Shown piece after piece: positions 13,920 to 29,085 of a stretch of DNA of 36,669 nucleotides. This stretch comes from Candidatus Falkowbacteria bacterium RIFOXYD12_FULL_34_57. Lineage in GTDB: Bacteria; Patescibacteriota; Patescibacteriia; Patescibacteriales; UBA12075. The stretch lies in the NCBI GenBank assembly GCA_001780285.1, contig MFGN01000021.1:75122-111790 (forward strand), written 5' to 3'. Under the pieces are notes generated by a model. It was not told the origin of the DNA, searched no databases, and saw only the letters and a list, made by a program, of their open reading frames with translations. The position numbers were made by a program, and so were the translations under genes. Numbering within the stretch: the stretch's first letter is position 1; every line of letters starts with the position of its first letter.

Positions 13920-15716
13920 TTACCTTAATTTTATATTCAATTCTTTTAACTGCTTCTCATTTACCTCACTCGGTGAATCCATCATCAAATCTCTTCCCTG
14001 TCCGTCTTTAGGAAAAGCATAAATATCTCGGATAGATTCCCAATCATTTAAAACCATTAGAATCCGATCAATTCCGGGAGCATTACCTCCGTGTGGCGGC
14101 GCACCATATTTAAAAGCATTAACCATGGCGCCGAAACGACTATCCACTTCACGCTTTTCGTAACCGGCAACCTCAAAGGCTTTATACATAATCTCCGGAT
14201 CATGATTACGAATTGCGCCACTTGATGCTTCAAAACCATTTATCACTAAATCAAATTGCCACGCTAAAATCTCAAAAGGATTTTTTTCTTGCAGGGCCTT
14301 AAGTCCTCCCTGGGGCATGGAAAATGGATTATGCCCAAAATCAATTCGTCCTTCTTCTATTTCTGAATATTCATACATTGGAAAATCAACCACCCAAGCC
14401 CAGGCAGCTTTAGTGTTATCTTTGAGTCCTAATCTGGCGCCACACTCATTTCTCACTACCCCCAATATTTCACATACTTCCCGCCATGCGCCTGCCCCAA
14501 AAAATATCACATCCCCTGTTTTAGCTTCCAATTTTTCCACTATTCTTTTTGCTAAATCTTCTCCTAAAAATTTGACGATTGGGGATTGTAATTTATCTCC
14601 TTTAACCTGAATATAAGCAAGTCCTTTTGCTCCTTTATTTTTTGCTAAAACCTCCAGATCATCTATTTCCTTTCTGGTAAAATTCCCCGCTCCTTCCACC
14701 TTCAAAGCATGAACTACATGCCCTTCTTTGGCGGCCATATCGGCAAATACCTTAAATTCGCAGTCTTTTACAATTTCTGTAATATTTTTAATCTCCATAT
14801 CAAATCTGAGATCTGGTTTATCGCTGCCATATCTATTCATAGCATCTCTCCAAGAAATCTGTTTGAATCTACCACCATCATTCAAGCCGACAATTTCTTT
14901 ACTACTGAATATTTTTGTTAAATTTATCATCAATGGTTCCATGATATTAAAAATATCGTCCTGCTCCACAAAACTCATTTCCATATCCAGCTGATAAAAT
15001 TCTCCATAATGCCGATCAATTCTGGTATCTTCATCGCGAAAGCATGGCGCAATCTGAAAATATTTATCTATTCCGCCGACCATTAAAAGTTGTTTGAACT
15101 GCTGGGGGGCTTGCGGCAGAGCAAAAAATTTACCGGGATAAAGCCGAGATGGAACCAAAAAATCCCTTGCCCCCTCCGGAGAAGAATTAGCCAGAATCGG
15201 TGTTTGAATTTCAGTAAAATCTTTATCTTGAAAATATTTTCGGATATAACGAATAAATAAATCTTTAGTCTTAAGCATGGTTTGAATTTTTTCGCGCCTG
15301 AGATCAATATACCGATATTTTAAACGTAAAGCTTCATTCGCAACACCCACCTTCTCTTCATCCAATTCAAAAGGAGGGGTCTTAGACTTATTTAAAATAA
15401 TTAATTCTTCTACTTGCATTTCTATTTCTCCGGTTTTCATTTTAGAATTAATCATATCATTGGGACGACCGATAACTTTACCTTTTACGGAAATAACCCA
15501 TTCACTACGCAAACTTTCCGCTTGTGCGTGCGCTTCTTTGTTTATCTCCGGATCAAACTTAATTTGTGTTAATCCATGAGAATCGCGAAGATCAACAAAA
15601 ATAATGCCACCATGATCGCGTCTTCTGTGCACCCAGCCGGCTAAAGCAACCTTCTGTTCAATTTGTGATTTATTTAATTCACCGCAATTGTGTGTTTTAT
15701 ACATAGTATATATCAT
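13920..15716 (-). CDS. aspS: Aspartyl-tRNA synthetase, bacterial type
   Basis: A 598-residue class II synthetase with the N-terminal OB domain (WVHRRRDHGGIIFVDLRD), motif 2 (QIAPCFRDEDTRIDRHYGEFYQLDMEMSF), the bacterial GAD insertion (about 290-400) and motif 3 (PPHGGNAPGIDRILMVL). Length and domains match the bacterial family. It charges tRNA-Asp; since asnS is also present, a discriminating enzyme is expected, but this is not proven from sequence. Met1 at 15716 or Met5 at 15704 (MYKTHNCGEL) could be the start; the latter fits the family. It is preceded by a 372-base leader containing a T-box riboswitch, so expression should rise when tRNA-Asp is uncharged. Confidence 0.97.
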   Translation of the reverse strand: MIYTMYKTHNCGELNKSQIEQKVALAGWVHRRRDHGGIIFVDLRDSHGLTQIKFDPEINKEAHAQAESLRSEWVISVKGKVIGRPNDMINSKMKTGEIEMQVEELIILNKSKTPPFELDEEKVGVANEALRLKYRYIDLRREKIQTMLKTKDLFIRYIRKYFQDKDFTEIQTPILANSSPEGARDFLVPSRLYPGKFFALPQAPQQFKQLLMVGGIDKYFQIAPCFRDEDTRIDRHYGEFYQLDMEMSFVEQDDIFNIMEPLMINLTKIFSSKEIVGLNDGGRFKQISWRDAMNRYGSDKPDLRFDMEIKNITEIVKDCEFKVFADMAAKEGHVVHALKVEGAGNFTRKEIDDLEVLAKNKGAKGLAYIQVKGDKLQSPIVKFLGEDLAKRIVEKLEAKTGDVIFFGAGAWREVCEILGVVRNECGARLGLKDNTKAAWAWVVDFPMYEYSEIEEGRIDFGHNPFSMPQGGLKALQEKNPFEILAWQFDLVINGFEASSGAIRNHDPEIMYKAFEVAGYEKREVDSRFGAMVNAFKYGAPPHGGNAPGIDRILMVLNDWESIRDIYAFPKDGQGRDLMMDSPSEVNEKQLKELNIKLR

Positions 15717-15787: not shown

Positions 15788-15867
15788 GTTATCCTGAACT
15801 TGATTCAGGATACACCAAGTAATACTGGATCAAAACGTCATGGATTCTGAATCAAGTTCAGAATGAC
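15788..15867. repeat. 80-bp copy of the palindromic element in the aspS leader
   Basis: GTTATCCTGAACTTGATTCA and TGAATCAAGTTCAGAATGAC are its arms, about 24 bp and nearly complementary. It lies between the T-box terminator and the aspS start, so it is transcribed only when the T-box reads through. Confidence 0.8.
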
Positions 15868-15883: not shown

Positions 15884-15945
15884 AAAAAAATTCGTCTCCG
15901 GGTATTATAAATATAAAAATATTTCATAATACTCAGGGACGAATT
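15884..15945 (-). terminator. T-box-controlled terminator upstream of aspS
   Basis: The 20-base arms at 15926-15945 and 15889-15908 (AATTCGTC...AGTATTAT with ATAATACCCGGAGACGAATT) pair with about three mismatch or wobble positions and are followed by seven T on the minus strand. The 5' arm contains CGTCCCT, the conserved 3' part of T-box antiterminators, so the two folds are mutually exclusive. Confidence 0.88.
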
Positions 15946-16088
15946 CTGGAAATTACTAAATAATTTCCGTATTCCGCGGTGCCACCCCGCTTGTTTTATT
16001 TGGTTATTTAAATAAAACCTCTTTTGATATTCTATTGTATTCCTCCTCCAGTGTCACATCTGGAATCAAGGGAATTTGTCGGCTGTTA
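15884..16088 (-). promoter_or_regulatory. T-box riboswitch (tRNA-Asp sensing) controlling aspS
   Basis: Reading the minus strand from the predicted start near 16088, a short Stem I comes first: outer helix 16071-16075/16039-16043, inner helix 16060-16064/16047-16051. Its 8-base apical loop contains GACA, a candidate Asp specifier (GAC, 16053-16055). A perfect 9-bp Stem III follows (16010-16018/15993-16001), then the hallmark T-box sequence GGGTGGCACCGCGG (15987-15974), then CGTCCCT and the terminator. The acceptor-end bulge is UGGC, complementary to GCCA, which fits the G73 discriminator of tRNA-Asp (and tRNA-Asn). Stem I is much shorter than in the classical Firmicutes form, so the specifier assignment is an inference. 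The T-box call itself is strong. Confidence 0.9.
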
Positions 16089-16094
16089 ATTTAA

Positions 16095-16123
16095 ATATTA
16101 ATAAAAATAATAAAAATAGTCAA
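16095..16123 (-). promoter_or_regulatory. Promoter of the T-box/aspS transcript
   Basis: Minus-strand TTGACT (16118-16123), exactly 17 bases, TAATAT (16095-16100). It lies directly upstream of the T-box leader. Confidence 0.8.
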
Positions 16124-18561: not shown

Positions 18562-19782
18562 TTAACTTATTCGGTCCAAATACTGCTGCAGAATCAGCAT
18601 GGCGGCAATTGAATCACGAGGCGCTTTTGTTCTCTTGTCACCAATCAAAGCATCGGCTTCCTTGCTGGTTAATCTTTCATCTACAAACTCCATCGGGATA
18701 TCTAAAATACTTTTTAATTTTTTTATAAAAATTTCAAATTCTTTGGTAGTATTTTTTTCTCCGGACATTTTAATCGGATTTCCAATTATTAACCGATTAA
18801 TATTTTCATTCTTAATTACTTTCATTAGGCTGTTTATATCACCAACCACATCAAAAGGAATTGCCATATTTGATCCTCGTTCGCCAATAGCAAGTCCTAT
18901 TCGCTTCTCCCCCCAATCGATTCCTAAGTATTTTTCTTTATTTTTTTGCCCGGATTGAAATTTAGTAATAATTTCACAACCCTTCTCGGTTACAGCTATA
19001 GTATGCTCAAAGTGAGCGCTTAAGCTGTCATCCTCTGTCTCAAAAGTAAAGCCATCAACCGCCTCTTTAATTTTCCATGAACCCACATTAACCATCGGTT
19101 CAATTGCTAAAACCATTCCTGGTTCTAAAATTATATTCTTAATACTTTTATTGGTAATCGCATAATGCGGTACTTGTGGCGCTTCATGCACTGCATATCC
19201 CACTCCATGACCCACTAATTCACGCACTACTGAAAAACCATTTTTTTCTACATATCCCTGAATAGCCTTGCCGATATCATTAAGCGTGTTTCCCGGTTTT
19301 ACTTGTTCTAATCCTAAATACAATGATTGTTCTGTTACTTCTACTAATTTTTTAATTTCAGGCTTTACATCTCCCACTAAAAATGTCTGGGCCATATCCG
19401 TATAATACCCCCCTCCGCGAGAATATTTATTGCGCGGATTTCTTGTAGCATTATAAGGATACTCCATTCCTACATCAATACCCACAATATCACCTGACTC
19501 TAAAATACGAGAAGGAATAGCGGGAGCATGAACGATTTCATGGTTAATAGAAGTGCAAAGCGCCGTAGGGAATTTTTCACCATTGGGCATCACAAAGTTT
19601 TTGAAAGCAGGCCGTGCACCAATAGCTTGCATTATTTTATTAGCCTTCTTTTCCAGTTCTCCAGTATTCATTCCCGGATAAATCATAACAGAGATTTTTT
19701 TCATTATCTCAGCTAAAATAACCCCTCCTTCGCGAATTAATTTTATCTCTTCTTTGGTTTTTATCATCTTGTTTAATTTCAT
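18562..19782 (-). CDS. map-ruvX: Fusion protein: methionine aminopeptidase type I plus RuvX/YqgF nuclease
   Basis: One uninterrupted 406-residue frame. Residues 1-275 are a MetAP with the catalytic His85, metal ligands D103, D129, H192, E228 and E259, and a normal end at TEKGCEIITK. An extra loop of about 15 residues (YNATRNPRNKYSRGGG) separates the first two metal Asp residues. Residues 284-406 are a complete RuvX/YqgF RNase H-like domain with D289 (YLGIDWGEKRIGLAIG), E369 (VDERLTS) and D390 (PRDSIAAMLILQQYL). The linker is only about 9 residues. MetAP trims initiator Met from nascent proteins; RuvX acts in 16S rRNA 5' processing or on Holliday junctions. The gene follows adk, the classical spc-operon order. 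No stop or start codon remains at the junction, so a fused product is expected. Confidence 0.92.
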   Translation of the reverse strand: MKLNKMIKTKEEIKLIREGGVILAEIMKKISVMIYPGMNTGELEKKANKIMQAIGARPAFKNFVMPNGEKFPTALCTSINHEIVHAPAIPSRILESGDIVGIDVGMEYPYNATRNPRNKYSRGGGYYTDMAQTFLVGDVKPEIKKLVEVTEQSLYLGLEQVKPGNTLNDIGKAIQGYVEKNGFSVVRELVGHGVGYAVHEAPQVPHYAITNKSIKNIILEPGMVLAIEPMVNVGSWKIKEAVDGFTFETEDDSLSAHFEHTIAVTEKGCEIITKFQSGQKNKEKYLGIDWGEKRIGLAIGERGSNMAIPFDVVGDINSLMKVIKNENINRLIIGNPIKMSGEKNTTKEFEIFIKKLKSILDIPMEFVDERLTSKEADALIGDKRTKAPRDSIAAMLILQQYLDRIS

Positions 19783-26513: not shown

Positions 26514-28982
26514 TTAATTATCAAACTTAATATAATTCTGATTAATCCCGGAAATAAAAGAACTCTTGGTTATATTCCGGCCATAATCATCAAAACGACT
26601 GTATGATAAAAATATTTTTTTGCGGGCCCGGGTCAAGGCTACATAAAAAAGCCTTTTTTCTTCTTCCAAGTCGCCCTTGAAAACAGGAAATTTAAATTCG
26701 TTCATCCCGACCACAAAGACATAATCAAATTCCAAGCCCTTAACCTGATGCACGGTAACGATTGGAATCTTGCCCCTGTCAATTCCTAAAAAATTAATGT
26801 CCCGCACCAAAGCCGCGTAATTTATCAATTCCCGAAGCACAATATCTCCCGGACGACTCAAATCATCTTTTTGCTCAAAAAGCCGCATTAACATATCTAT
26901 GGATTTTAATCTTTTGTCCCCGTCCTCTTTTTCACTATAATATTTTTGCAGCCCAGACTTTTCCCAAATATATTTTAAAATTTCAGCCGGTCTTTTATTA
27001 ACTATCCCTTTATTCCACATGCTTATCTCCGAGGCCAACTTAATAAATTTCTTCGAAACAGAGAAAAATATTTCCATCCGTTCTCTCTGGTTCTCTTTTA
27101 ATTTTTCTACTAACACTCCCAAAAGCCCGACTGTTGCCAGCACATCATCGCGCGCATCATGTGTAGCCGTGGCCAAATTAAATTTTTTTGCCAAAGTGCT
27201 TAATTTATAATTCTCACTTTCCACCAATCTGCGGGAAATATCCAAAGTATCATAATATTCTTTTAAATCAAAGTTTATCTTATGCCTTTTGCCGTTTTCA
27301 ATAATCATTGAAAGATCAAAATTTACATTATGCCCGACTATAACATTGCCGCTAATAAAATTTTGCAGTTCCTGCAGCACTACACGCGGATTCCGGCCCT
27401 CTTTTTCTAAAAATTCATCTGTAATGCCGTGTACCTCCCCTGATATTCCTACCGGAATCGTATTTTTTAAATAAAAATGAAAATCCTTGCCGAGCTTACC
27501 ATCCACCACTTCTATCGCGTAAATCTGAATAATCTCATCTTTCAAGACATTGGTTCCGGTGGTTTCCGTATCTAGAACCACCACTCGTCCTTTTTCATGA
27601 TTACGAATTAAATTCTCGAAAGGTTCTTTAAAATTAAAATTTTTAAAATCCAAAAAATCGGAAATTCTAAGACCTGTGCGTACGCCGTCCTCTCTAATAT
27701 TTTTTAAAACAGCATCACTAATATTCCTGCTTGGACGCTGAATGATCCGATAAGCGCTCCCCATGTCAAACTTATTAAAAAGTATCTTTAAATAAGCAAA
27801 AATATCCCTTATCTCCTGCCGCCGGAAAAAATCATATTTATCAACGGTAATATGCGCGATGCCCTTTTGGTTGAACACTTCCGCGATGCTGGTAATAATA
27901 TAATTAGCGCGCGCCAGCACCGCGATGCCGGCATTTTTATCGCTATTTTTAATATTTTCTATTTCGCTTATCACCCATTCTATCTCCTCCCGCAAATTAT
28001 ACCCGCCAAAAACATTTATGCATTTTTTTTCTCCTTCTTTTTCTTTTTCAGTATTAATATTTTTTGTCGCCCTTCTCTCCAGATTATCCAAAAAACTTTT
28101 TATCGCATCCAAAAGATGCCTGTTGAAACGGTAATTTATTTCCAGGTGAAGCTCCGTAACCGGTTTAAAATGCGCGCGAAAAAGATCGGCTATCAAAAAG
28201 GGCTCGCTTCCCCGAAAGGAATAAATAGTCTGGTCCAAATCCCCGATTAAAGAAATATTTTTATGTTTTTTGGCCAGTTCCTTCACGACCAAATATTCGG
28301 ATAAATGCGTATCCTGAAACTCATCCAGCTGGATAAACCTGAATCTCTTAGACCATTTTTTCTGCAGCTTCTTATCCCGATACAAACCTTCCATGGTAAT
28401 TAAAACCAAATTATTAAAATCAAGGGCATTCTGCATTTTTAATTCCTCCAGATATTTCTCACCTATTTTATCCATCACTTTATCCTGTTTTATTTCCGGT
28501 ACAAGACAGCCGATATTCTTCTCCAATCTGGACAGATTTCTTTTGTAAACTTCTTCTATTATGTTTATAATCTCCCTTTTGCTCTTTTGCTCATCAATGA
28601 TTACCTGCGGAAATTCCTCCAAAACCTTTTTCATTACCTCAAATTGTTCGGCTTCGTCAAATATGACAAAATCAGAACTGATTCCCAGCCGCTTAGCTTC
28701 CGCGCGCGCAAAAAAAGCGCAAAATCCGTGAAAGGTAGAAATCATAATTTTATCCGCCACATTTTTTTTGTTGATTCTTTTTTTGATTCTTTCGGTCATT
28801 TCTTCCGCTGCCCGATTGGTAAATGTCAAACACAAAATCTCTTCCGGCCTGATTCCTTCTTCCATGGCCATGACCACTCTCTCCGTCAAAACAGTAGTTT
28901 TGCCGGTACCCACCGGAGCCGAAACCAAAAAAGCCCCGAAAATACTGTCAATTATTTTTTGTTGTTGTTGATTAAATTTCAT
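26514..28982 (-). CDS. UvrD/PcrA-type SF1 helicase with internal DnaQ-like 3'-5' exonuclease
   Basis: 822 residues from ATG 28982 (MKFNQQQQKIID, which starts at the Q motif); 29033 would add 17. Helicase motifs: Walker A APVGTGKTT, TFTNRAAEEM (Ia), LDEFQDT (II, about 220), GDLDQTIYSFRG (III), VTVHQVKGLEFD (V, about 745) and LFYVALTRAR (VI, about 783). Between about 465 and 625, in the 2A/2B part, lies a full DEDDh exonuclease: LDTETTG (ExoI), HNVNFD (ExoII) and HDARDD (ExoIII). All catalytic acids and the His are present. The product should unwind DNA and degrade 3' ends, acting in repair or replication restart. It is divergent from glnA. Confidence 0.93.
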   Translation of the reverse strand: MKFNQQQQKIIDSIFGAFLVSAPVGTGKTTVLTERVVMAMEEGIRPEEILCLTFTNRAAEEMTERIKKRINKKNVADKIMISTFHGFCAFFARAEAKRLGISSDFVIFDEAEQFEVMKKVLEEFPQVIIDEQKSKREIINIIEEVYKRNLSRLEKNIGCLVPEIKQDKVMDKIGEKYLEELKMQNALDFNNLVLITMEGLYRDKKLQKKWSKRFRFIQLDEFQDTHLSEYLVVKELAKKHKNISLIGDLDQTIYSFRGSEPFLIADLFRAHFKPVTELHLEINYRFNRHLLDAIKSFLDNLERRATKNINTEKEKEGEKKCINVFGGYNLREEIEWVISEIENIKNSDKNAGIAVLARANYIITSIAEVFNQKGIAHITVDKYDFFRRQEIRDIFAYLKILFNKFDMGSAYRIIQRPSRNISDAVLKNIREDGVRTGLRISDFLDFKNFNFKEPFENLIRNHEKGRVVVLDTETTGTNVLKDEIIQIYAIEVVDGKLGKDFHFYLKNTIPVGISGEVHGITDEFLEKEGRNPRVVLQELQNFISGNVIVGHNVNFDLSMIIENGKRHKINFDLKEYYDTLDISRRLVESENYKLSTLAKKFNLATATHDARDDVLATVGLLGVLVEKLKENQRERMEIFFSVSKKFIKLASEISMWNKGIVNKRPAEILKYIWEKSGLQKYYSEKEDGDKRLKSIDMLMRLFEQKDDLSRPGDIVLRELINYAALVRDINFLGIDRGKIPIVTVHQVKGLEFDYVFVVGMNEFKFPVFKGDLEEEKRLFYVALTRARKKIFLSYSRFDDYGRNITKSSFISGINQNYIKFDN

Positions 28983-29085
28983 ATCACAATAAGCTAAATT
29001 CATTTTACCATACATAACACTTATAACAAACAAAAAACGCTAAAAAACTATTTTTATTATTTATATAATAATTAATATAATATTA

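Follow-up and report, generated by a model that had tools for sequence, protein, structure and literature searches.

Most T-box riboswitches described so far come from Firmicutes and Actinobacteria, and small numbers are known in Chloroflexi, Deinococcus and Deltaproteobacteria (PMC2494555). Those acting on transcription generally need a long Stem I with a module that binds the tRNA elbow, and an ultrashort Stem I is typical of translational T-boxes, where Stem II becomes essential (PMC7583486, section 6.2); tRNA binding is known to be stabilised by three elements: the elbow module, Stem II and the IIA/B pseudoknot (PMC7583486). In the TBDB survey, use of the ultrashort (class II) model was restricted to Actinobacteria and to class I hits that were truncated (PMC7778990). 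We found no report of T-box riboswitches in the Candidate Phyla Radiation (CPR) or Parcubacteria in the open-access literature searched, and we provisionally regard T-boxes in CPR as unreported, with the proviso that this rests on open-access literature only, without the TBDB table or the full Rfam member list.

Here we describe a leader upstream of aspS in a stretch of 36,669 nucleotides (the window), which is the contig segment 75122-111790 of a 1.6-Mb genome that is 97% complete. The leader is very likely a transcription-attenuating T-box riboswitch coupling aspS expression to the charging of tRNA-Asp, a function that is inferred and has not been measured.

Anatomy of the aspS leader

The first-pass annotation had proposed a T-box upstream of aspS with its elements in the right order, and all of those it claimed were found, in order, on the minus strand within 15884-16123 (Table 1). 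Its naming of aspS as the regulated gene held (the gene matches both protein models), as did its UGGC bulge matching G73 of tRNA-Asp, which the genome's own tRNA-Asp carries, and its view of the genome as CPR-like, the contig not being from a Firmicute by aspS kinship. The claim of a Stem I of about 37 bases with GAC in the apical loop also held, and is refined here to a kink-turn of canonical form with no Stem II; the likeness it drew to actinobacterial ileS T-boxes held for Stem I (kink-turn and apical specifier; PMC10651847). The promoter that it described is present, but the hexamer match by itself is at chance level, and support comes from its position before the leader.

Table 1. Coordinates of the aspS leader, its gene and the second T-box of the same genome
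Feature	Position	Strand	Remarks
Sigma-70-like promoter	16095-16123	-	-35 TTGACT 16123-16118, 17-nt spacer, -10 TAATAT 16100-16095; lies ahead of the leader
Ultrashort Stem I, 37 nt	16039-16075	-	kink-turn capped by specifier loop
Specifier GAC in Stem I apical loop	16053-16055	-	matches anticodon GUC of own tRNA-Asp; relatives have GAC or AAC in this position
Stem III, 9 bp	15993-16018	-	flanks AAGAG (16023-16019) and AA (15992-15991)
T-box GGGUGGCACCGCG (DNA GGGTGGCACCGCG)	15975-15987	-	13-nt core; bulge UGGC 15984-15981
Antiterminator 3' strand AAUUCGUCCC	15936-15945	-	also part of the terminator 5' arm
Intrinsic terminator hairpin, then UUUUUUU	15884-15947	-	-23.4 kcal/mol, z = -7.4
aspS, aspartate--tRNA ligase (gene under control)	13920-15716	-	TIGR00459 661 bits, NF001750 802 bits
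Second T-box of the window genome, upstream of thrS	1501-1664 of L001, contig C6	-	loop ACUACCAAC with ACC, bulge UGGA, terminator

Stem I begins about 10 nt from the expected transcription start and has the sequence AUUCC-cuu-GA-UUCCAG[AUGUGACA]CUGGAG-GA-GGAAU, the apical loop being ATGTGACA as DNA. The layout, an outer helix, a 3-nt bulge, tandem G-A pairs, an inner helix and a loop with GAC then A, is that of a canonical kink-turn as read from the sequence. Just a short linker (16038-16024) leads from Stem I to the AAGAG side of the Stem III motif, and the two flanks of Stem III, again as read, fit RRRNG-Stem III-AA, a motif of T-boxes (PMC7778990). The window leader has neither Stem II nor a IIA/B pseudoknot in this interval, and it is likewise without the distal part of Stem I that bears the tRNA-elbow module, Stem I closing in the specifier loop after 37 nt. 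The antiterminator, with its UGGN-bulge T-box core, spans 15987-15936 (GGGUGGCACCGCG ... CGUCCC) and bears an extra hairpin on top (15969-15947); CGTCCC lies at 15941-15936, inside its 3' strand, and the competing terminator has one strand in common with it. The UGGC bulge is complementary to the GCCA 3' end of tRNA-Asp (G73). The parts of the leader, their order and the antiterminator/terminator overlap are directly established, as are the codon and discriminator matches and the conservation in relatives given below.

Scanning with the Rfam T-box model and folding of the leader had both been proposed in the first-pass annotation. The folding z-score is -4.2 for the 240-nt leader and -3.1 for the Stem III-antiterminator part (-22 kcal/mol), in addition to that of the terminator. 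The Rfam model (RF00230) matches the leader with 37.5 bits (E = 1e-6), under its gathering score of 93 bits, which is a search threshold and not a biological feature, and the alignment reaches both ends of the model while skipping 87 positions, most of Stem I. Folding, this match and the recurrence of the pattern in the order (below) show that the arrangement is not due to chance. We do not hold the low score against membership, because clostridial aspS T-boxes with a long Stem I (n = 7) also miss the cut-off with 62-88 bits, and the score as an argument against a T-box was dropped.

The aspS product is 61-73% identical to those of Parcubacteria, Moranbacteria and Falkowbacteria metagenome-assembled genomes (MAGs) and about 48-49% to those of Clostridia; the source genome is therefore that of a Moranbacteria-like member of the Patescibacteria (CPR), not a Firmicute, and the gene is no recent Firmicute import. 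Its start codon is probably the ATG at 15704. The leader does not meet the criterion for a ribosome-site sequestrator, having instead a U-tract terminator that ends 167 nt ahead of the first possible aspS start codon. Inverted repeats lie in this spacer, among them two exact inverted copies of CTGAACTTGATTCAG (15794-15808 and 15847-15861). Elsewhere in the window, two minus-strand genes have unusual domain arrangements: a UvrD-type helicase (26514-29033) has an RNase_T (DnaQ-like exonuclease) match at residues 485-637, within the span of its UvrD_C match, and one reading frame (18562-19782) matches both a peptidase M24 domain and RuvX, a possible gene fusion.

T-boxes and their specifiers across the order and phylum

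We searched genomes with the exact pattern GGTGGNACCGCG-N(4-34)-CGTCC, using the reversed pattern as control and taxonomic ranks as assigned by the search tool; the counts for order and phylum are lower bounds since the pattern is exact. It occurs in at least 69 of the 111 genomes of the order (reversed control, 1) and in at least 35 of 380 drawn across the phylum (control, 6). That a T-box would be unexpected in CPR, as the first-pass annotation had remarked, holds against the literature found, yet T-boxes proved common in this order. The sites lie mostly ahead of aminoacyl-tRNA synthetase genes. The first gene downstream of the 95 order-level sites is thrS (47), aspS-type (15), trpS (5), trpB (4) or glyS (2), together 73, the rest being various or unclear; elsewhere in the phylum the downstream genes resemble, judging N-termini by eye, glyS, thrS, asnS, ileS or valS, trpS and argininosuccinate synthase. 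A terminator-like hairpin follows at 122 of 126 sites, compared to 28% of shuffles, and its 5' arm overlaps CGTCC at 120 of them. One T-box of the same order (L155, 1496-1721, minus strand) reaches 109 bits, over the Rfam cut-off; it precedes a GNAT acetyltransferase gene, and similar leaders occur in L151 and L154. We consider it very likely, jointly with the T-box identity itself, that a compact, transcription-terminating T-box form is widespread in this CPR order, its function again being inferred.

The thrS leaders give the largest single set. A gapless alignment of all 47 contains GATTG, a 6-bp hairpin and a 7-nt loop CNACCAA, with ACC in the loop and UGGA in the bulge of every one. The Stem I helix shows all four Watson-Crick pair types, with 95.7% of cells paired versus 58% in shuffled alignments, and a covariation score of 1.07 versus 0.29 when shuffled and at most 0.16 in slid versions. 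This hairpin also occurs outside the order (L257, L258 and L259); it was not found in 16 genomes of Clostridia and Actinobacteria holding other loci, a small comparison.

When the remaining 79 non-thrS leaders are considered, a strict kink-turn plus hairpin pattern matches 10, compared to 0.13% of dinucleotide shuffles, and in nine of the ten the loop contains an Asp- or Gly-system codon, namely GAC ahead of aspS and GGC in glyS leaders and in both leaders of a tandem pair. The tenth, in a trpS leader, is probably accidental. The tandem T-boxes lie on the minus strand of L253 (oriented offsets 1347 and 1500), each with a short, kink-turned Stem I that carries GGC, ahead of an unidentified gene. 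The glyS leaders elsewhere in the phylum have GGC in a kink-turn hairpin like that of the window leader. A reduced aspS layout like the window's, with loop GUGACA, is found in a related genus of the same family (L192), and several glyS leaders share the layout of these two. A Stem II-like region (GAA...AGUA and ACGGGUAAGCCCGUUAUAGC) is present in many of the relatives' aspS leaders, and Stem II was therefore probably lost in the window's lineage. The apical-loop form does not apply to the trp leaders, whose UGG seemingly lies in an internal loop within a compact Stem I; those of trpS, trpB and trpE-like genes (L170, L182, L198, L203, L224, L230) have UUGG in the apparent internal loop and several extra hairpins.

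The specifier fits the regulated gene throughout these classes (GAC before aspS, ACC before thrS in 47 of 47, GGC before glyS), and the tRNAs agree with it. In the window genome, the tRNA-Asp has anticodon GUC and G73, fitting specifier GAC and bulge UGGC, and the ACC and UGGA of its thrS leader are matched by a tRNA-Thr with anticodon GGU and U73. In further genomes G73 was found in every tRNA-Asp and tRNA-Asn read, and U73 in tRNA-Thr(GGU) of all 16 genomes read; the 3' CCA is not gene-encoded in most of these tRNA genes. The expectation that relatives would conserve UGGC was partly met, as the bulges of aspS leaders are UGGC or, in five, UGGU, which would form a G-U pair with G73.

Conservation of GAC was likewise only partial. 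The Stem I loop of the aspS leader holds GAC in seven genomes and AAC (Asn) in eight (L035/L181, L158, L159, L165, L179, L187, L228 and L233), the loops of L159 and L192 being read by eye. For L035 we considered GAC of the second hairpin as the specifier and rejected it: that GAC is part of a hairpin with a GCGA tetraloop, and Stem I there has the loop UAAACA. Four of the fifteen genomes, all of them GAC genomes, yielded a canonical asnS and none of the eight with AAC leaders did, several of the fifteen MAGs being just 74-88% complete; gatB is present in all but one. By our own count the association has a one-sided Fisher p of about 0.03, uncorrected for kinship. This is suggestive and not proven, but if the loop were not read as a codon, the pattern would be difficult to account for. 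The AAC leaders fit an AspRS that is non-discriminating and acts on tRNA-Asn as well in genomes without AsnRS, again a suggestion short of proof, and AAC before or near aspS could be a marker of such an enzyme. As a separate observation, one genome (G105) has three AsnS-like paralogues (L270, L276, L282), each under the asnS cut-off.

Alternative explanations

The rival that survives best, and still a very unlikely one, is a decayed T-box in which the 3' half was kept, Stem II and the distal Stem I were lost and a now constitutive terminator is bypassed by a promoter nearer aspS. The absence of Stem II and the elbow module, and the long spacer with inverted repeats ahead of aspS, speak for it. 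However, the window leader retains an intact kink-turn, codon, bulge, Stem III motif and overlapping terminator, and decay is not expected to spare a canonical kink-turn together with a matching codon and bulge. Moreover, the same reduced aspS layout with its GUGACA loop recurs in the related genus (L192), and reduced layouts are also seen in glyS leaders of other families.

A plain attenuator or protein-binding leader with a codon-like loop by chance is all but excluded. In its favour, tRNA binding is so far without measurement, but codon, gene and bulge agree across specificities (Thr ACC/UGGA, Asp GAC/UGGC, Gly GGC/UGGA) and with the tRNA discriminators, and the 13-nt T-box core is present. 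Equally remote is a mis-binned Firmicute contig, or a T-box recently gained with its gene from a Firmicute: T-boxes are described mostly from Firmicutes (PMC2494555), but aspS kinship refutes a Firmicute origin of the gene, and T-boxes occur across the order, including a second on another contig of the window genome. It is still possible that only the RNA element was transferred, long ago.

Proposed mechanism and comparison with known T-boxes

In the T-box reading that we prefer, GAC in the apical loop of the kink-turned Stem I would pair with the GUC anticodon of tRNA-Asp during transcription of the leader. The free GCCA end of an uncharged tRNA-Asp would then pair with the UGGC bulge and hold the antiterminator, so that RNA polymerase would read into aspS; with charged tRNA-Asp the 3' end would be blocked, the antiterminator 3' strand would join the terminator hairpin and transcription would stop. 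Binding of tRNA, sensing of aminoacylation and changed readthrough in the cell are inferred by analogy with the T-box family. Affinity for tRNA could be low, because the leader lacks the elbow module, Stem II and the IIA/B pseudoknot, and a downstream promoter may bypass the switch, since the terminator and the start codon are separated by 167 nt that contain inverted repeats.

A bolder reading is that the transcriptional T-boxes used by Patescibacteria form a compact class of their own, in which a codon hairpin loop (with or without a kink-turn) and a 3'-end-sensing core suffice to decode tRNA, without an elbow module and sometimes without Stem II. We lean towards it, though only by a narrow margin; if true, tRNA can be sensed co-transcriptionally by less than the accepted minimum. 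Transcriptional T-boxes without the elbow module in any case appear common in one CPR order, the window copy also being without Stem II, which poses the testable question of the least RNA needed to read a tRNA's anticodon and charging before polymerase reaches the terminator. Uncultured, genome-reduced bacteria would thereby gain a readable amino-acid starvation response, and specifier codons may tell genomes that use AsnRS from those that take the indirect route to Asn-tRNA.

Among described systems, glyQS T-boxes are without Stem II, as is the window leader, but they compensate via a long Stem I with an elbow-binding module (PMC7583486); the window leader lacks Stem II and this module alike. 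Firmicute transcriptional T-boxes (RF00230; clostridial aspS leaders L089 and L100) resemble it in the antiterminator/terminator logic, UGGN bulge, specifier, Stem III and target gene, but they align with the model's long Stem I (62-88 bits), where the window leader skips 87 positions (37.5 bits). The actinobacterial translational ileS T-boxes of Nocardia farcinica and Mycobacterium tuberculosis share with the window leader an ultrashort kink-turned Stem I, an apical specifier and the lack of an elbow module, as well as Stem III and the T-box core (PMC10651847, PMC7583486), a likeness judged against the description in PMC10651847 without direct alignment. They have Stem II with an S-turn and IIA/B pseudoknot, which the window leader lacks, whereas many of its relatives' aspS leaders retain a Stem II-like region; the window leader in turn has a transcription terminator in place of a ribosome-site sequestrator, and its target is aspS. 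Set against the scheme of PMC7583486, the window element, without Stem II or IIA/B, is transcriptional yet ultrashort.
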